Shown one piece after another: positions 4,873-11,561 of a DNA stretch of 32,427 bases. Each line of letters starts with the position of its first letter. The stretch's first letter is position 1. Source of the DNA: Myxococcaceae bacterium (GTDB lineage: Bacteria; Myxococcota; Myxococcia; Myxococcales; Myxococcaceae). The stretch is taken from the NCBI GenBank assembly GCA_016926755.1, contig JAFGNZ010000391.1, positions 1 through 32,427 on the forward strand, given 5' to 3'. The notes under the pieces were generated by a model. That model saw only the letters and a list, made by a program, of their open reading frames with translations. It searched no databases and was not told the DNA's origin. Both the position numbers and the translations under genes were made by a program.

Positions 4873-4960
4873 CTCGTCGCTTTCATGGCGCAGTGCGCGA
4901 GGTGAGCGCTTCGCCGCCGGTCGGAGCTCCTGTGCTAGCTTCGCGCGCTCCTGTTGGGCG

Positions 4961-4966
4961 AGGAGG
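4961..4966 (+). promoter_or_regulatory. Ribosome binding site fixing the acylase start
   Basis: AGGAGG with five bases to ATG 4972. It makes 4972 the start in preference to the upstream in-frame codon at 4954. Confidence 0.75.
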
Positions 4967-4971
4967 AACTC

Positions 4972-7746
4972 ATGCGTCGTTCTGCTCTCCTGTCTCGGTT
5001 CGGTCTGCTCGTGGCGGTCCTGCTTGGAGGTGTGAGCGGCTGCTCAGACTCGACTGTCGATCCCCCTGTCGATCCTCCGGGGACGAGCAATCCGAAGCTG
5101 CCGGGGCTGGAAGGGCCGGTGGAGGTCGTCGTGGACACGCGGGGGATGCCGCACATCTACGCGTCCTCGCTGCATGACGCGATGCTGGTGCAGGGCTACC
5201 TGATGGCGCGCGACAGGTTCCCGCAGATGGAGATCCTCAAGCGGAACGTGACCGGGCAGCTCGCGGAGTTCATCGGGACGCTGTCGCCCATGGCCTTGGA
5301 GAATGACGTCGCCGCGCGGGTGATCGGCTTCAAGCGGCTCAGCGAGCAGATCTACGCGTCGCTGCCCGAGGGCGCACCGGAGAAGGTCGCGGTCGAGGCG
5401 TTCGCCGCGGGGGTGAACGTCCACATCGCCGAGCTGCGGAGCGGGAGCGCGAAGCTGCCGCCGGGCGCGGAGCTGCTCGGGCTCCTGATGTCCCGGCCCT
5501 CGGCGTTCACCGACTGGAGGCCACAGGACTCGATCGCGATCGGGCGCTACCTGTCGCACGCGCTGTCGTACTCGGCGGGGGAGGAGGTGGCGTTGACGCA
5601 GGCCAGGATGGCCGTCGCGGCGAAGTTCCCCGCGGGCAACCCTCGCGCGGGCCTCTTCCGCGACTTCTGGTCGTTCGCCCCGGCGCGCGAGGTGTTCTCG
5701 CGAGAGGGGTTCTCGAAGGTGGAGGGGGAGGCGAGCGCCGGGCGGGCGGTGCTCCCGGATGGGCAGGCGCTCTCGAAGGCACAGGGGTTCCTCGACGCGG
5801 CGCGGAGGCTGAGGGAGGTGCTCGGCGACGAGAGCCGCGGGTCGAACAACTGGGTGGTGGCCGGGGCGAAGACGGCCTCGGGGGCGCCGCTGCTCGCGAA
5901 TGATCCCCACCTGTCGCTGCCGAGCCCTCCGCTCTTCTGGTACTCGCACCTGAACACGAAGCAGGCGGGAGGGAACCTGGACGCGCAGGGGCTCTCGCTG
6001 GTCGGAGTGCCTGGGGTCATCCTCGGGTTCAACGATCAGATCGCGTGGGGCAGCACCACGGCGAACCACGACGTGACGGACGTGTACGAGGAGACGATCA
6101 CGGAGGGCGTGGACGGGGCGCCGGACACCGTGCTGTTCCAGGGCCAGCAGGTGCCCATCGAGATCATCACGGAGACGATCAAGGTCGCGGGCAAGCCGGA
6201 TGTGGTGCTCCAGCTCGAGCGCGTCCCCCACCACGGGCTCATCCTCCCGACGATCCAGGACGGCGCGGTGGTGCCACGCACCGCGAGCAAGGCCCTGTCC
6301 GCGCGGTGGACGGGGGACGAGGTGTCGAACGAGCTCTCGGCCTTCCTGGGGCTGAACACCGCGACGAACCTGGAGGAGGTGCGCGCGGCGCTCGCGAACT
6401 TCAAGGTGGGCGCCCAGAGCTTCGTGGTGGTGACGCGCGGCGGGGACATCTTCTGGTCCACGCAGTCACGGCTGCCGGTGAGGGATCCCCGGGCGATGAC
6501 GTACGATCCGCAGACGCAGGCCGGGCTGTCGCCCGCCATGGTGCTGCCGGGCGACGGGAGCGCGGAGTGGATCGGCGATCTGGAGGATCGCCTCCTGCCG
6601 CAGGACCTGAACCCGGCCAGGGGCTTCATCGCGACGGCGAACAATGATCTGGTGGGGACGACGCAGGACGGCAACCCGTTCAACGATCCGCACTATATCG
6701 GGTGGGGCTATGATCTCGGGCACCGGATCGCGCGCATCACGGAGCGGCTCCAGGGGCTCGTGGACAAGGGCGGGGTGCGGCCGGAGGACATGGTGGAGGT
6801 GCAGGCAGATCACCGCTCGCCCATGGGCGCGCTGCTGGCGCCGGCGTTCGTGGCGGCGGCGCGGCGGGTGGCGGAGGAGCGGGCCCAGCCGGGGACCCAC
6901 CCTGACCTGGCGCCCTTCGTGCAGCGGTCCACCGCGGCGGACCTGGACCTGCTCGCGCAGCTGGCGGACCGGCTGGCGGCGTGGACCTATGAGACGCCCG
7001 CGGGGGTGGACATCGGGGACGGCGAGCCGCCCGCGGCGGAGGTCGCCGACTCCGTCGCGACGACGCTCTTCAACGCCTCGATGCTGCGGCTCGTCAAGCT
7101 GGCCTTCGATGACGAGCTGAGCGCGCTCGGGCACAGCCCGGGCAGCAACGGGATCGCGAAGGTGCTCCAATGGGCGATCCTGGAGCCGAGCAGGCTCGCC
7201 ACGTACAGCGCCGAGCGGGGCGATACGGTGCTCTGGGACAACCTCGCGACGACCGATGTGATGGAGACGCGCGACGAGCGGATCGCCAGCGCGATGTTGC
7301 TGGGCGGCCTGTACCTGCGGGAGCAATTCGGGGCGGACATGTCGCAGTGGCGGTGGGGGCGGCTGCACACGCTGACGCTGGAGTCGCTGGTGCCCTCGCT
7401 GACGGGCGACAGCGCGGTGACGCTCCCGGCCCCGGGGAACGCGGCGTTCCCCAACGGCTTTCCGCGGCCGGGCGACAACTTCTCCGTGGACGTCGCGTCG
7501 TTCGGGATGTCGGACCCGGAGCGCTTCTCGTACGCGCATGGCCCGGTGCAGCGGCTGGTGGTGGAGATGACGCCCGAGGGGCCGCGAGCATGGAACGCGC
7601 TGCCGGGCGGCCAGCACTTCGATCCCCGGAGCGACCACCACGCGGACGAGCTCGAGTCCTGGCGGCGGAACCAGGCGCCCCGGCTCGCCTTCACGCGGGA
7701 AGAGGTGAACGCGGACAAGGCCTCGAGCCTCTCGTTCGCGCCGTGA
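4972..7746 (+). CDS. Penicillin acylase family Ntn hydrolase, lipoprotein
   Basis: 924 residues. The N-terminus (MRRSALLSRFG, hydrophobic stretch, VSGC) is a lipoprotein signal with Cys24 as the lipidated residue, so the enzyme should sit at the outer membrane or periplasm. The body matches the penicillin amidase (S45) family. The motif RGSNNWVV places the self-processing nucleophile at Ser291, NDPH follows at ~310-313, and ANN (Asn557/558) fits the oxyanion-hole asparagine region. Cleavage before Ser291 would give an alpha chain and a ~630-residue beta chain. Members hydrolyse amide bonds of penicillins, acyl-homoserine lactones or similar acylated amines. The substrate here cannot be told from sequence. 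It follows glmS after 163 bases and ends 34 bases from the convergent kinase gene. Confidence 0.9.
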   Translation: MRRSALLSRFGLLVAVLLGGVSGCSDSTVDPPVDPPGTSNPKLPGLEGPVEVVVDTRGMPHIYASSLHDAMLVQGYLMARDRFPQMEILKRNVTGQLAEFIGTLSPMALENDVAARVIGFKRLSEQIYASLPEGAPEKVAVEAFAAGVNVHIAELRSGSAKLPPGAELLGLLMSRPSAFTDWRPQDSIAIGRYLSHALSYSAGEEVALTQARMAVAAKFPAGNPRAGLFRDFWSFAPAREVFSREGFSKVEGEASAGRAVLPDGQALSKAQGFLDAARRLREVLGDESRGSNNWVVAGAKTASGAPLLANDPHLSLPSPPLFWYSHLNTKQAGGNLDAQGLSLVGVPGVILGFNDQIAWGSTTANHDVTDVYEETITEGVDGAPDTVLFQGQQVPIEIITETIKVAGKPDVVLQLERVPHHGLILPTIQDGAVVPRTASKALSARWTGDEVSNELSAFLGLNTATNLEEVRAALANFKVGAQSFVVVTRGGDIFWSTQSRLPVRDPRAMTYDPQTQAGLSPAMVLPGDGSAEWIGDLEDRLLPQDLNPARGFIATANNDLVGTTQDGNPFNDPHYIGWGYDLGHRIARITERLQGLVDKGGVRPEDMVEVQADHRSPMGALLAPAFVAAARRVAEERAQPGTHPDLAPFVQRSTAADLDLLAQLADRLAAWTYETPAGVDIGDGEPPAAEVADSVATTLFNASMLRLVKLAFDDELSALGHSPGSNGIAKVLQWAILEPSRLATYSAERGDTVLWDNLATTDVMETRDERIASAMLLGGLYLREQFGADMSQWRWGRLHTLTLESLVPSLTGDSAVTLPAPGNAAFPNGFPRPGDNFSVDVASFGMSDPERFSYAHGPVQRLVVEMTPEGPRAWNALPGGQHFDPRSDHHADELESWRRNQAPRLAFTREEVNADKASSLSFAP

Positions 7747-7776
7747 GGCCGCTGTCCGGACAAGCGCTGGCGTGAG

Positions 7777-7790
7777 CGGGCTACAGCCCG
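7777..7790. terminator. Small hairpin between convergent genes
   Basis: CGGGC (7777-7781), loop TACA, GCCCG (7786-7790). It overlaps the stop codon of the kinase gene in the 34-base gap between convergent genes. The stem is short and lacks a T tract, so this is a weak candidate for a shared terminator. Confidence 0.2.
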
Positions 7791-8719
7791 GCGTAGCTCA
7801 GCGTCTTCAGCAGCCAGGACTGCACCTGCTGGCGCGTGGGGCACTGCCCCGCGTCCAGCGCCCACGCGAAGAGCGCCCCGGCGAACTCCCCCGCCGCGCG
7901 GTAGCGGCTGGCCGGATCCGGCGCGAGCGCCTTGCGGATGATCTGGGCCAGCGGCCGGTCCACCGACTCCGGCAGGCTCAGCTTCGCCGCGCGGATGGCC
8001 GCCATCACCACCTCCTCGTTCGTCTCGTCGCGGAGGAACGGGTGGGTGCCCACCACCAGCTCGTGCAGCACGATGCCCAGCGCGAAGAGGTCCGAGGCGG
8101 GCGTGAGCGGCTCCCCCCGCGTCTGCTCGGGTGAGAGGTAGTGCAGCTTGCCTGCCGTGCTGCCGTCCTGGGGACCGATGTCCGCCCCGCGCGCCGTCGC
8201 CACGCCGAAGTCGCCGAGCTTCACGTCCCCTTCGCCCGAGAAGAAGATGTTGGAGGGGTTCACGTCCCCGTGCACCAGCTCCAGCGGCCGCCCGCTCCGC
8301 GTGCGCAGCTGGTGGAAGTAGGCCAGCGCCCGCAGCACCTCGATGCAGACGTGGACGGCCGTGCCCACCGGGATGCTGCGCTTGAGCGTCTCGTGGGCCT
8401 CGATCAGCCGCCGGAGATCCCCCCCGACGAGGAACTCCATGGCGATGAAGGGCCGCCCGAAGGCGTGCCCCGACTCCAGCATGCGCACGAGGTTGGGGTG
8501 ATCCAGCAGCCCCATCAGGTCCGCCTCGTCGGCGAACGCCTCGGGCGGCGCGTCCTTGCGCGCCAGCTTGAGCGCCACCGGGAACGTGTCTCCCCGGGCG
8601 GGGATCGCGTCCGCCAGGAACACCTCCGCCATCCCGCCCTCGCCCAGCCGCGAGCGGACGACGAAACGGCCGTAGCGCCGCGAGGGAATCTCGACGGTCT
8701 TGGTGGCCCCGACTTCCAC
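7781..8719 (-). CDS. Cytoplasmic Ser/Thr protein kinase (Hanks type)
   Basis: 312-residue protein that is essentially only a kinase domain, with no membrane segment or sensor domain. Visible elements are the glycine loop GEGGMAEVF (~26-34), the ATP lysine in VALKLAR (Lys51), Glu65 in helix C, a catalytic loop HGDVNPSN (Asp152), DFG (Asp170), SPEQ in place of APE, and DLFALGIVLHEL. The catalytic aspartate and lysine are kept, so activity is expected. The usual Arg before Asp152 is Gly, making it a non-RD kinase. The start is GTG and is forced: an in-frame TAG lies four codons upstream. It follows the small acidic gene by 32 bases on the same strand, so it is probably the last gene of the sigma/anti-sigma operon and could phosphorylate one of its members. 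That link is inference. Confidence 0.9.
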   Translation of the reverse strand: MEVGATKTVEIPSRRYGRFVVRSRLGEGGMAEVFLADAIPARGDTFPVALKLARKDAPPEAFADEADLMGLLDHPNLVRMLESGHAFGRPFIAMEFLVGGDLRRLIEAHETLKRSIPVGTAVHVCIEVLRALAYFHQLRTRSGRPLELVHGDVNPSNIFFSGEGDVKLGDFGVATARGADIGPQDGSTAGKLHYLSPEQTRGEPLTPASDLFALGIVLHELVVGTHPFLRDETNEEVVMAAIRAAKLSLPESVDRPLAQIIRKALAPDPASRYRAAGEFAGALFAWALDAGQCPTRQQVQSWLLKTLSYAGL

Positions 8720-8751
8720 GGGCCCAGTCTAGGCCACGAAGCGCCGAAGTG

Positions 8752-8991
8752 TCAGTCCTCCTGCCGGGACAGCTCCATCAGCAGCTCGAGGTCCTCCGCC
8801 TCGTCCAGGCTCTCGAGCAGCTCGAGGTTCTCCACCACCTCCCGGTCCTCGGCGGACAGCCTGGGCTCGGCCGGGGTGGGAGCGGGCTCGGTGGTGCGAG
8901 GCGGCGGGGGCGGGGGCGGGCGCTGCTCCTCCGCGGCAGCCGCGCCGGCGTAGAGCCAGGCGGCCAGTGGGATGAAGAGGAGGCGGTTCAC
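8752..8991 (-). CDS. Small exported acidic protein with polyproline linker
   Basis: 79 residues. MNRLLFIPLAAWLYAGAAAA looks like a cleavable signal peptide. The mature part is EEQR, then seven prolines, a Pro/Thr linker, and an acidic leucine-rich tail (VVENLELLESLDEAEDLELL). The tail shares the patterns V[VI]ENLxxLE and LDxxEDLE with the C-terminal tail of the anti-sigma encoded two genes upstream. Its start overlaps the end of the DUF3106-like gene by ATGA, indicating translational coupling. I recognise no family. The likely role, by context, is binding in the cell envelope to the strongly basic protein encoded just upstream or competing with the anti-sigma tail. That is inference. Confidence 0.7.
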   Translation of the reverse strand: MNRLLFIPLAAWLYAGAAAAEEQRPPPPPPPRTTEPAPTPAEPRLSAEDREVVENLELLESLDEAEDLELLMELSRQED

Positions 8992-9485
8992 CGGCGCCGC
9001 CTCTCGCGCATGCGCTCGCGCAGCTCCTGGCGCTGCTCGGGCGTCATCTGCCGCCAGCGCCGCATGTTCTCCATCATCTGCTCGCGCCGCTCCGGGTGCG
9101 CGCGCAGGTACTCCCGCATCCGCTTGCGCAGCTCCGTCTTGCGCTCCGGATCCATGTTCCGGAACTCATGGAAGCGCTCGCGCAGGAGCTTCCGCTCCTC
9201 CGGAGACAGCCGCTGGAACTCGCGCAGGTTGGCGCGCAGCCGCTCACGCTCCTCGGGCGGCAGGCGCTTGAAGCGCTCCAGGTTGGCCCGGATGCGCTCC
9301 TGCTCCTCCTTGGGCAGCGCCTTGAACTCGCGCAGCTTCGCGCGCAGCGCCTCCTTCTGCTCGGGCGAGAGCTTCTCGAAGCGCTCGGCCGCCGTCTGCC
9401 CCTGCCCCGGCTCCTGCGCCCGCGAGGGCACCCCCAGCAGCAACGCCACCACCACGCCGATGATCGTCAGGCTGCGTGCCATCAC
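8988..9485 (-). CDS. Exported DUF3106-like protein of seven 18-residue repeats
   Basis: 165 residues. MMARSLTIIGVVVALLLG with cleavage near SRAQ is a signal peptide. From residue 36 to 161 the protein is seven uninterrupted 18-residue units (36-53, 54-71, 72-89, 90-107, 108-125, 126-143, 144-161), each of the form aromatic-x-x-[LMA]-x-P-E-x-x-x-x-L-[RK]-x-x-[LM]-x-[ER], ending in RRRR. Proline recurs every 18 residues, and the rest is strongly helical and basic. The pattern 'LSPEQ/LPPEER' resembles DUF3106 and loosely the LTxxQ motifs of periplasmic Spy/CpxP/ZraP proteins. The start overlaps the anti-sigma gene by ATGA. Probable role: envelope sensor or chaperone partner of the anti-sigma, inferred from context. 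Confidence 0.8.
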   Translation of the reverse strand: MMARSLTIIGVVVALLLGVPSRAQEPGQGQTAAERFEKLSPEQKEALRAKLREFKALPKEEQERIRANLERFKRLPPEERERLRANLREFQRLSPEERKLLRERFHEFRNMDPERKTELRKRMREYLRAHPERREQMMENMRRWRQMTPEQRQELRERMRERRRR

Positions 9486-9952
9486 CGCACCTCCAGCTCG
9501 TGGAGGTTCTCGATGACCTCCAGGTCCTCGAAGCTGTCCAGGCCCACCACGTCGTAGTCCTCCACCAGCTCCAGGTTCGCCGCCAGCTCCAGCGCCCCCG
9601 CGTCCATCACCTCCAGGCCCCGCGAGTCACGGCCGCTGTAGAAGACGGCCAGCCCCACCGCCGCCGCCAGCCCCAGCGAGGGCATCAGCACCGAGGGGCG
9701 CAGCAGCGCCAGCAGCCGCTCCCTCAGCGGAGGCGGCAGCGCGTCCACCTTCGCCAGCACCGCCCGGCGTGTCTCCGCCGAGGGCGTGAACGCGGGCAGC
9801 TCCACCATCCGGGCCACGGTGCGCCGCAGCAGCGCCTCCGTGCTCTGGCACCCGGCGCACGTCCCCAGGTGCGCCTCGACCTCCGCGCGGCGCGCCGGGG
9901 GCAGCTCCCCGTCGATGTACGCCGTCAGCTCTTCCTCGAACGTGCAGCTCAT
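9482..9952 (-). CDS. Zinc-finger anti-sigma factor, membrane anchored
   Basis: 156 residues from MSCTFEEELTAYIDGEL. The N-terminal domain has the anti-sigma zinc motif His-x3-Cys-x2-Cys (HLGTCAGC), the mark of ZAS/RsrA-ChrR-type anti-sigmas. One membrane segment follows (about residues 87-107), then a ~45-residue acidic tail that should lie outside the inner membrane and contains LELVEDYD and EDLEVIENLHELE. An open frame continues upstream to 10105, but that part is the shadow of the sigma gene, and the true ATG overlaps the sigma stop by ATGA. It is expected to hold the partner sigma inactive until a signal reaches it through the tail. Confidence 0.88.
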   Translation of the reverse strand: MSCTFEEELTAYIDGELPPARRAEVEAHLGTCAGCQSTEALLRRTVARMVELPAFTPSAETRRAVLAKVDALPPPLRERLLALLRPSVLMPSLGLAAAVGLAVFYSGRDSRGLEVMDAGALELAANLELVEDYDVVGLDSFEDLEVIENLHELEVR

Positions 9953-10614
9953 GCCCTGCTCCTCGCGGGTCCGACGCCCGCCTGCAACTCTTCTATCTTC
10001 CGCGCCACCGCCAGCGTGGCTCGGTGGATGAGGCTCTTCACCGCCGCCTCGCTCGCCTCCAGCGCCTCCGCGATGTCCCGGTACGCCATGCCCTCGAAGC
10101 GGCACATGGTGAAGGCCGCCCGCTCCCGCTCGCTCATCCCCTTCAGCGCCTCGCCCACGGCCCGCTCCAGCTCCCGCCCCGCCACCGCCTCGTCGGGCCG
10201 ATCCCCCTCGGGGCCTGCCACCTCCACCCCCGCCTCGGACTCCTCTGTCGGAGATGTGCTCGTATGAGCCACCCGGTACTCTCCGCGTCGCACCTCGTTG
10301 AGGCAGTGGTTGGTCGCCACCCGGAACAGGAACGTCTTGAACTGCGCCGTCGGCTTGTAGGCCTTCGCGTTCCGGTACAGCTTCACGAAGATGTCCTGCG
10401 TCAGCTCCTCCGCCCTCGCCCGATCCCCCACGAAGCGGAAGGCGAAGCGCGCCACGCTGGCGTGATGGCGGTCGAACAGCAGGGCGAAGGCCTTCCGATC
10501 GCCCGCGGCCACCCTCAGCATCGTCTGTGCGTCCGAATCCGCGTCCACGTCCGAACTGAACCCCGTTGCCTTCAGGAAGTTGCGGGCCTCATGCGCTTTG
10601 AACCGCACAGGCAC
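9949..10614 (-). CDS. ECF-family RNA polymerase sigma factor
   Basis: Up to 221 residues. The sigma-2 region spans ~42-110 (FDRHHASVARFAFRFVG, AEELTQDIFVKLY, FLFRVATNHCLNEVRR) and sigma-4 ~152-205 (MSERERAAFTMCRFEGMAYR, IAEALEASEAAVKSLIHRA). The linker is long, acidic and rich in Ser/Thr (HTSTSPTEESE). The start shown is GTG at 10614, two bases from the divergent gene's GTG. A second GTG at 10548, giving MDADSDAQTMLRV, fits usual ECF N-termini better and would leave room for a promoter, so the first ~22 residues are doubtful. The stop overlaps the anti-sigma ATG. It probably transcribes its own operon, as many ECF factors do. Confidence 0.9.
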   Translation of the reverse strand: MPVRFKAHEARNFLKATGFSSDVDADSDAQTMLRVAAGDRKAFALLFDRHHASVARFAFRFVGDRARAEELTQDIFVKLYRNAKAYKPTAQFKTFLFRVATNHCLNEVRRGEYRVAHTSTSPTEESEAGVEVAGPEGDRPDEAVAGRELERAVGEALKGMSERERAAFTMCRFEGMAYRDIAEALEASEAAVKSLIHRATLAVARKIEELQAGVGPARSRA

Positions 10615-10616
10615 TC

Positions 10617-11561
10617 GTGGGTACAGTTTTCAGCGTGGCGATCGCCTCCAGCACACGTCCTCCCACCTCGCAGGAGGCCCCAGACGCCCCCCAGGCCGAG
10701 GGTGTGAGTCACGCCCCCATCTTGACCGAGGGAGAGCCCCAGGAGCCGTCCGCCGGGCTGTCCTGGGCGGAGACGCCAGTTCCCGCCGCGCCAGCGCCGC
10801 CGGCCGAGGCGCCTGGAGAGCGCTCCAGCCCGCTCCCCGGGTGGGAGCGCGACCTGCCCTCCGTGCTGATCGATCCGGCGCAGATCACCTCGCACCCGAG
10901 CGCCCTCCCGCTGCGGGGAGCCAAGACTCCGCCCCCGGAGACGCCGCTGCCGGTGCTGCTGTTGATCGATCAGGCTCGGAGCGCCTCGGGGGAGGAGCGG
11001 CAGGAACTGTCCCGGCGCATCAACCGTTGGCTGGACCAGATGGTGCGCGAGGGCGGTTCACGGCACGTGGCGGACTGGTTCCACCACCTCATCGAGAGCG
11101 AGCGGCTGGAGGGCCTGGCGGATGCCGCGGGCCATGCCTGCCACGAGACGGCCATCCAAGGGCTGCTCGCCATGGGCTTCCCCTACGCGCTGGAGGTGCG
11201 GCCCGAGGACCTGGAGCGCATCAAGCCCCGGGAGCGCCGGCGGCGGGGGCGGGACAAGGACGTGAAGGGGGCGAGCGCGGGCGTCCTGGCGGGGGGGATC
11301 CTCACGGAGCTGGTCCTGAACCTCCTGCGTGCGCACCCCGTCCGGGGGCCGCTCACGGTAGAGGTAGGGCTCTCCCTGCTGGCCATGGTCGCCCTGCTGC
11401 TCAGCACCCCGCGCAGCCCCCTGCGCAATATGGGGCTGGCGGTGCTGCTCGTGGTGTCCCTGCTCTCTGTTTCCCTAGGATTCTTCACGGGTTACGCTGG
11501 AATGGTGGCCGGTCTGGCCGGTCTGGTGGCCGTCCTCTTGTTCGCTCTCCATCGGAGCTGA
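10617..11561 (+). CDS. Hypothetical membrane protein with proline-rich N-terminus
   Basis: 314 residues from a GTG start; a second GTG at 10635 is equally possible. Residues 1-110 are low-complexity, rich in Pro/Ala/Glu and probably disordered. The middle (~120-210) is a polar helical domain with RRINRWLDQMV, ADWFHHLIESERLEGLAD and GHACHETAIQGLL. A basic stretch RERRRRGRDKDVKG follows, then two or three hydrophobic segments in the last ~90 residues ending at LFALHRS. I do not recognise the family. The order cytoplasmic domain, then C-terminal membrane anchor, is inferred from the positive patch before the first segment. It diverges from the sigma operon and ends 131 bases before recA. Confidence 0.75.
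   Translation: MGTVFSVAIASSTRPPTSQEAPDAPQAEGVSHAPILTEGEPQEPSAGLSWAETPVPAAPAPPAEAPGERSSPLPGWERDLPSVLIDPAQITSHPSALPLRGAKTPPPETPLPVLLLIDQARSASGEERQELSRRINRWLDQMVREGGSRHVADWFHHLIESERLEGLADAAGHACHETAIQGLLAMGFPYALEVRPEDLERIKPRERRRRGRDKDVKGASAGVLAGGILTELVLNLLRAHPVRGPLTVEVGLSLLAMVALLLSTPRSPLRNMGLAVLLVVSLLSVSLGFFTGYAGMVAGLAGLVAVLLFALHRS

Follow-up and report, generated by a model that had tools for sequence, protein, structure and literature searches.

Positions 7781 to 10614 of a 32,427-nucleotide stretch of Myxococcaceae DNA (contig JAFGNZ010000391.1; the whole stretch is called the window below) carry, on the minus strand, genes for an extracytoplasmic function (ECF) sigma factor, a membrane anti-sigma factor, two small exported proteins and a serine/threonine (Ser/Thr) kinase. 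The question raised by this locus is which of these genes act together, and how. A first-pass annotation, made from the letters of the window, had read all five as one envelope-signaling operon in which control by the anti-sigma and control by the kinase would meet. The content of the five genes was borne out by Pfam matches and open reading frames (ORFs), and an ECF operon for envelope signaling with two exported accessory proteins remains a sound description, but the kinase gene is most probably a neighbor and no fifth member. The best explanation, to which we assign a probability of roughly 55%, is a self-activating envelope-stress cassette of four genes. Comparison between genomes supports the cassette, its promoter and a probable regulon.

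Cassette genes and their conservation

The sigma factor gene (9949 to 10548) matched Sigma70_r2 (PF04542, 62.3 bits) and r4_2 (PF08281, 56.0 bits) above the Pfam cut-offs. It is followed on the same strand by genes for a membrane anti-sigma of 156 amino acids (aa) (9482 to 9952; zf-HC2, 44.4 bits against a cut-off of 22.2), for a basic, exported DUF3106 protein (8988 to 9485; PF11304, 92.0 bits against a cut-off of 24.3) and for a small acidic exported protein of 79 aa (8752 to 8991), recognized as an ORF with relatives and matching no Pfam family above cut-off. Successive genes overlap by 4 nucleotides (nt) each, as annotated, though the overlaps read ATGA, GTGA and GTGA in that order rather than ATGA throughout; the 32-nt gap reported ahead of the kinase gene was correct.

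To place this row in context, 145 genomes of the order were surveyed, 96 of them in the family of the window (f1), with f2 denoting a sister family and f3 a further group; a genome was called cassette-bearing if it had a DUF3106 relative among the matches listed. Genomes and sequences are related, so that counts overstate independence, and the Fisher test of kinase co-occurrence is uncorrected for kinship. A DUF3106 relative was found in at least 84 of the 145 genomes and in at least 59 of the 96 in f1. Gene order was followed in 80 loci fetched around DUF3106 (f1, 58; f3, 11; f2, 9; elsewhere, 2), all selected for encoding that protein. The order sigma, anti-sigma, DUF3106 on a single strand was kept in 67 of the 80: 57/58 in f1, where the sole exception was interrupted by a contig end, 8/11 in f3, 2/2 elsewhere and 0/9 in f2. 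Of the 58 f1 loci, 57 yielded a call or a match for the acidic gene. Automatic calling, the rule for which requires an acidic composition, identified it in 60 of 81 sequences (the 80 loci and the window). Among the 21 others, the motif lay in a longer ORF (L118), was a tblastn match only (L113) or belonged to a locus close to a contig end (L126); four loci had an acidic ORF missed by the rule (L089, L090, L095, L101), in eight f3 loci its place was taken by a large exported protein, and six had no clear assignment (L086, L088, L092, L139, L141, L142).

Among the 58 f1 loci, 42 encoded RecA (Pfam) near the cassette and 32 the gene divergent from the sigma gene, some loci being short. Relative to G080, the genome G078 lacks 1,842 bp between flanks that are 96 to 97% identical; the deletion runs from within the −10 element to a point past the acidic gene, and the kinase gene is left open. 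In G118, ~1.75 kb is absent relative to its sibling G115, and what remains is the promoter with the initial codons of the sigma gene (locus L216); neither G118 nor G115 has a kinase orthologue among the matches listed. Five cassette-less genomes (G078, G045, G047, G048 and G055) share the order recA, divergent gene, kinase. These blockwise losses, together with retention of the kinase in G078, indicate that the four genes form a block with the kinase outside it. On such comparative grounds it is very highly probable that the four are gained and lost together and that the kinase is separable from them.

Promoter and regulon of the sigma factor

The sigma gene had initially been started at 10614, to which its ORF is open. 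Coding conservation begins at the GTG at 10548, and a conserved ECF-type promoter, CCCGCAACTT-N13-GGGTT (10559 to 10586, minus strand), falls within the supposed beginning of the ORF; the start at 10614 was discarded on that account, and the revised one rests on a DNA alignment and the promoter footprint. In that alignment, of the window with 28 relatives, the motif or near variants of it stand directly ahead of the conserved coding start; a wider comparison of upstream regions took in 70 sigma sequences, 5 of them without an anchor and one (L129) wrongly anchored. Because the promoter is only 10 nt before the sigma GTG, the sigma transcript would be leaderless or nearly so.

Across the 96 f1 genomes, the exact motif occurred at 71 sites and its reversed form at 2. 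The exact motif was present in 44 of the 59 cassette-bearing genomes and in 1 of the 37 cassette-less ones (P = 3 × 10−13). The single motif-bearing, cassette-less genome is G118, in which the site is the leftover promoter of its cassette remnant and was thus excluded from the count outside the cassette. The 71 sites comprise 30 cassette promoters, this remnant and 40 sites elsewhere, all 40 being in cassette-bearing genomes and none in cassette-less ones. An ORF with a strict signal peptide or lipobox started within 70 nt of 33 of the 40, whereas in control DNA from around the cassette the same held for 40 of 927 other GGGTT words and for 178 of 6,000 positions drawn at random. Seven sites failed the strict export test (L179, L180, L181, L201, L158, L215, L222), though an ORF following each of them has a hydrophobic N-terminus.

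Since further copies of the conserved promoter stand ahead of exported-protein genes in cassette-bearing genomes, the most likely role of the sigma factor is to transcribe its own operon together with a small regulon encoding exported products, a conclusion that we hold almost as firmly as the integrity of the block. The candidate targets vary by genus and include small helical exported proteins, basic repeat proteins and EF-hand-like lipoproteins, among others; six regulon proteins had no Pfam family above cut-off, with EF-hand signals below it in one. Relatives of two regulon proteins were not found in the window's own genome at E values up to 10−6. At L159, L165, L193, L197 and other loci, some small exported proteins behind the ECF promoter end in QKHDxQxR and others in GIxFDN plus a few residues; Pfam returned no family for the two examples of these that were scanned.

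Similarity of the acidic protein to the anti-sigma tail

The zinc ligands of the anti-sigma (H28, C32 and C35) are invariant in 13 aligned sequences, HxxxCxxC is present in 57 of 73 homologues, and the protein has weak sequence matches to the solved structures of RsiW, DdvA and ChrR. A hydrophobic stretch at about residues 86 to 106, located by reading, is a putative transmembrane helix, and the AlphaFold2 (AF2) model combines a confident zinc domain, a low-confidence helix over residues 86 to 106 and two tail helices. The outer tail has ~45 residues. Its acidic part (residues 119 to 152; 9497 to 9598, minus strand) follows the family pattern ELAxNLELVEDYxVVGLxSxEDLEVVxNLHELE, and the acidic exported protein has a similar C-terminal motif (residues 48 to 76; 8764 to 8850, minus strand) with the family pattern EDxEVVENLELLESLDxAEDLELLLELS. 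When 60 acidic C-termini were scored with a profile of the 73 tails, the median was 20.6 bits, and 59 of the 60 beat the best of 1,200 composition-preserving shuffles. In the reverse comparison, a profile of the acidic C-termini placed 62 of the 73 tails above the 99% level of shuffled sequences and 45 above the best shuffle, and hhalign aligned tail and C-terminus with P = 5 × 10−6 for a wide set and P = 10−4 for two small sets. G138 also has a tail-bearing anti-sigma, at which its contig ends.

Median net charge is −13 for the anti-sigma tails, −10.5 for the acidic C-termini and +14 for DUF3106 (81 sequences). In the AF2 model of the DUF3106 protein, seven long helices follow the export signal (mean predicted local distance difference test [pLDDT], 75.7; predicted template modeling score, 0.40), with predicted starts at residues 40, 58, 76, 94, 112, 130 and 148, a step of 18 residues. 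The protein scored 28.1 bits against PF13801 (Metal_resist), under the cut-off of 29.2. Foldseek returned no match to the model with an E value up to 0.001, and the best Z score against 53 chains was 3.9, below the level that the tool regards as meaningful for helical proteins, with CpxP (Z = 3.0) among unrelated rows. The best E value in a sequence search of the PDB was 0.049, and plasmid records gave no match. The literature searched, of partial coverage, made no mention of DUF3106, PF11304 or DUF3619.

Related arrangements in f2 and f3

In f2, genes for an anti-sigma-like protein and DUF3106 were adjacent in all nine loci, with a sigma match in none and an acidic relative matched in six. 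The anti-sigma-like protein of L094 scored 21.0 bits for zf-HC2, just under the cut-off of 22.2. Directly before the pair, six of the nine loci (L084, L086, L089, L090, L094, in which the row spans 5108 to 8018, and L141) carry two genes, one for a PDZ-containing M50 peptidase (183.7 bits) and one for an FHA protein (42.1 bits); the M50 match in L095 is partial and ~5 kb off, and L093 and L140 are interrupted by contig ends. The combination of M50 and PDZ is the build of RseP. Because the neighboring gene has that build, it is appealing to suppose by analogy that in f2 the protein with the tail would undergo regulated proteolysis, and the row could be a sister arrangement with another output. 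Since the trio of tail-bearing, DUF3106 and acidic proteins is accompanied in f2 by an FHA protein and an RseP-like protease where f1 has a sigma factor, it may conceivably be a general membrane-signaling unit.

Eight of the 11 f3 loci (L085, L087, L096 to L100 and L102) encode a protein of ~530 aa after DUF3106, replacing the acidic one. This large protein has an export-signal-like start and is possibly an outer-membrane protein.

The kinase gene as a neighbor

The kinase gene (7781 to 8719, minus strand; PF00069, 123.7 bits against a cut-off of 31.7) encodes a soluble Ser/Thr kinase, the catalytic loop of which reads HGD, not HRD. Orthologues, defined as relatives with E values up to 1.6 × 10−110 among the matches listed, were found in at least 44 of the 96 f1 genomes, comprising 35 of the 59 with the cassette and 9 of the 37 without it, and 24 cassette-bearing genomes had none among those matches. 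The distance from DUF3106 to the kinase start was at most 600 nt in 15 of the 59 cassette-bearing genomes and at most 2.5 kb in only 18, so the gene neighborhood does not uphold a five-gene set, and the refuting case named in the first-pass annotation, a kinase not conserved beside the other four genes, is largely borne out; in 8 f1 genomes, the orthologue lay on a different contig from the cassette. A single operon of five genes was dropped, as the kinase is separable from the other four.

A putative promoter of the kinase gene itself, CTGACA-N18-TAGACT (8726 to 8755, minus strand), ends 6 nt before its GTG. Of 32 kinase loci, 21 have a −10-like box, TANA(A/C/T)T, that begins 9 to 23 nt ahead of the start, whereas 500 shuffles averaged 0.9 such loci and never exceeded 4; the box is present in both loci with the cassette elsewhere (L230 and L231). 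Read-through from the cassette into the kinase gene is possible.

The sigma linker had been described as rich in Ser/Thr, which is true of the window but not of its relatives, since T118 to S121 are Ser/Thr in 21 to 40% of 70 sequences. The acidic pair E-E of sigma2.2 is retained in 68 and 69 of 70. According to the accessible text of PMC13147305, kinase-requiring sigma factors of group ECF43 have mostly replaced the acidic sigma2.2 residues and co-occur with their kinase; here the acidic residues are kept, and co-occurrence with a Hanks-type kinase is not constant, as its gene lies no more than 2.5 kb away in 18 of the 59 genomes. This argument from sigma2.2 and the linker is indirect, and phosphorylation could take place elsewhere. 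With the kinase separable from the cassette and the acidic pair retained, the idea that anti-sigma and kinase control meet at this locus is not supported.

Proposed mechanism and alternatives

In the self-activating cassette that we favor, the zinc-finger anti-sigma would keep the sigma factor at the inner membrane, and the basic, helical DUF3106 protein would bind the short acidic outer tail of the anti-sigma as a brake in the periplasm. The acidic exported protein, encoded on the same mRNA, would use its similar motif to compete for DUF3106. An envelope ligand occupying DUF3106 would shift the balance and free the sigma factor, which the anti-sigma would release perhaps via intramembrane proteolysis, and the freed sigma factor would raise its own operon and the exported proteins. 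That the balance of tail, DUF3106, mimic and ligand sets retention or release of the sigma factor is a tentative proposal, with slightly less than even odds in our estimate, and the direction of the DUF3106 effect within it is uncertain. More tentative again is a periplasmic partner switch in which the acidic protein, as a mimic of the tail, would compete for DUF3106 and in which the trio would be modular, with exchangeable cytoplasmic outputs.

Several observations weigh against the four-gene cassette as set out here. We infer all binding steps and the direction of control. The tail likeness concerns a short, acidic, leucine-rich stretch in related sequences, and its alignment with the acidic C-terminus requires a 5-residue gap; the scores compared, real and shuffled alike, are score plus bias, and for the window's own acidic protein HMMER gave a bias term of 11.0 alongside a score of 11.7 bits. 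In the reverse comparison, 28 of the 73 tails fail to beat the best shuffle, and AF2 models the tail at a pLDDT under 50. The fuller zinc pattern Cx23-29HxxxCxxC is found in just 45 of the 73 anti-sigmas. As to the regulon, 15 of the 59 cassette-bearing genomes are without any exact motif, more distant loci have wider promoter variants, and the window's own genome has no exact site beyond that of the cassette and a nearly equal number of two-mismatch sites and controls (30 versus 25). The large protein in place of the acidic one in f3 means that the mimic is not universal, and no M50 relative was found in the fetched loci outside f2. Lastly, kinase and cassette co-occur above chance (Fisher P = 0.001, among related genomes), and the −10-like box precedes the kinase gene in just 3 of 7 cassette-less loci (L225, L227 and L228; it is missing in L223, L224, L226 and L229), which weakens the case for a kinase promoter of its own.

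Of the competing explanations, the one that survives best, though we consider it unlikely, holds that the exported pair are products of the regulon and nothing else, DUF3106 being an envelope chaperone or polymer binder and the acidic protein its solubility partner, with no action on the anti-sigma. The same promoter does precede other small exported-protein genes, and the opposite charges of the two proteins fit a chaperone and its partner. However, the acidic motif resembles the anti-sigma tail, and DUF3106 adjoins an anti-sigma-like gene in 9/9 f2 loci without a matched sigma factor. Somewhat less likely still is that the tail likeness reflects convergence between short acidic amphipathic helices, with DUF3106 acting by another surface, as RseB or CnrX does. 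The low complexity of the tail stretch, the HMMER bias term and the absence of any acidic gene from eight f3 loci that were examined are consistent with convergence, whereas composition-preserving shuffles fail to reproduce the tail scores. A five-gene operon in which the kinase phosphorylates the sigma or anti-sigma factor as a second input is very improbable: the kinase gene is on the same strand directly downstream, and the phosphothreonine-binding FHA protein encoded beside the f2 trio keeps a link to a Ser/Thr kinase thinkable, but the kinase outlasts the cassette in G078, comes and goes across f1, has a −10-like box in most loci and faces a sigma factor with its sigma2.2 acidic pair intact and no conserved linker Ser/Thr.

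Neighboring genes

The divergent gene (10617 to 11561) has no Pfam match and adjoins recA in many relatives. A conserved block ahead of it may be a sigma70-like promoter (TTGAAC-N18-TACAGT; 10598 to 10627, plus strand); the GTG listed for the gene precedes this presumed −10 box, so that translation probably begins at a more internal position. On the other side of the cassette, a gene for a large penicillin-amidase family protein (4954 to 7746; 526 bits) converges on the kinase gene and was matched in 1 of 58 f1 loci.

Comparison with known systems

We report as new the start and promoter of the sigma gene, the likeness between the acidic C-terminus and the anti-sigma tail, and the f2 arrangement. 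The four-gene cassette gives DUF3106, a family without an assigned function, a concrete and testable role, and defines a promoter and exported targets for an ECF sigma factor of soil-dwelling myxobacteria related to Corallococcus, Myxococcus/Pyxidicoccus, Archangium and Hyalangium, in which the natural deletions are ready-made knock-outs. Titles and abstract openings on periplasmic anti-sigma mimicry and on the ECF systems of these genera, of partial coverage, did not describe this set.

As in RpoE/RseA/RseB of Escherichia coli, an ECF sigma factor, a membrane anti-sigma and an exported third protein are encoded together, and the f2 trio adjoins a gene for an M50-PDZ protease, comparable to RseP. 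In that system, RseB binds the outer part of RseA (accessible text of PMC4598750 and PMC8103513). Here, by contrast, DUF3106 replaces RseB, a second exported protein with a tail-like end is added, and the anti-sigma has zf-HC2 as its cytoplasmic domain and an outer tail of only ~45 residues. CnrYXH of Cupriavidus metallidurans likewise pairs an anti-sigma with a periplasmic sensor protein (PMC4598750, accessible text), a role that DUF3106 may have here, but DUF3106 falls below the PF13801 cut-off, and the same text describes no further, acidic protein for CnrYXH. With the ECF43 pairs EcfP/PknT and EcfK/PknS it shares a Hanks-type kinase gene adjoining the ECF sigma gene, and it differs from them, as far as the accessible account of that group goes, in that the acidic sigma2.2 motif is retained and the kinase comes and goes.

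The logic of competition by mimicry is that of the EcfG/NepR/PhyR partner switch, in which one protein mimics the sigma factor (PMC8103513, accessible text); the mimic proposed here would copy the outer tail of the anti-sigma, not the sigma factor. Mimicry outside the inner membrane was not met in the accessible text of PMC13147305, PMC4598750, PMC7694542 and PMC8103513. If true, tail competition in this cassette would be signal control by mimicry on the outer side of that membrane.

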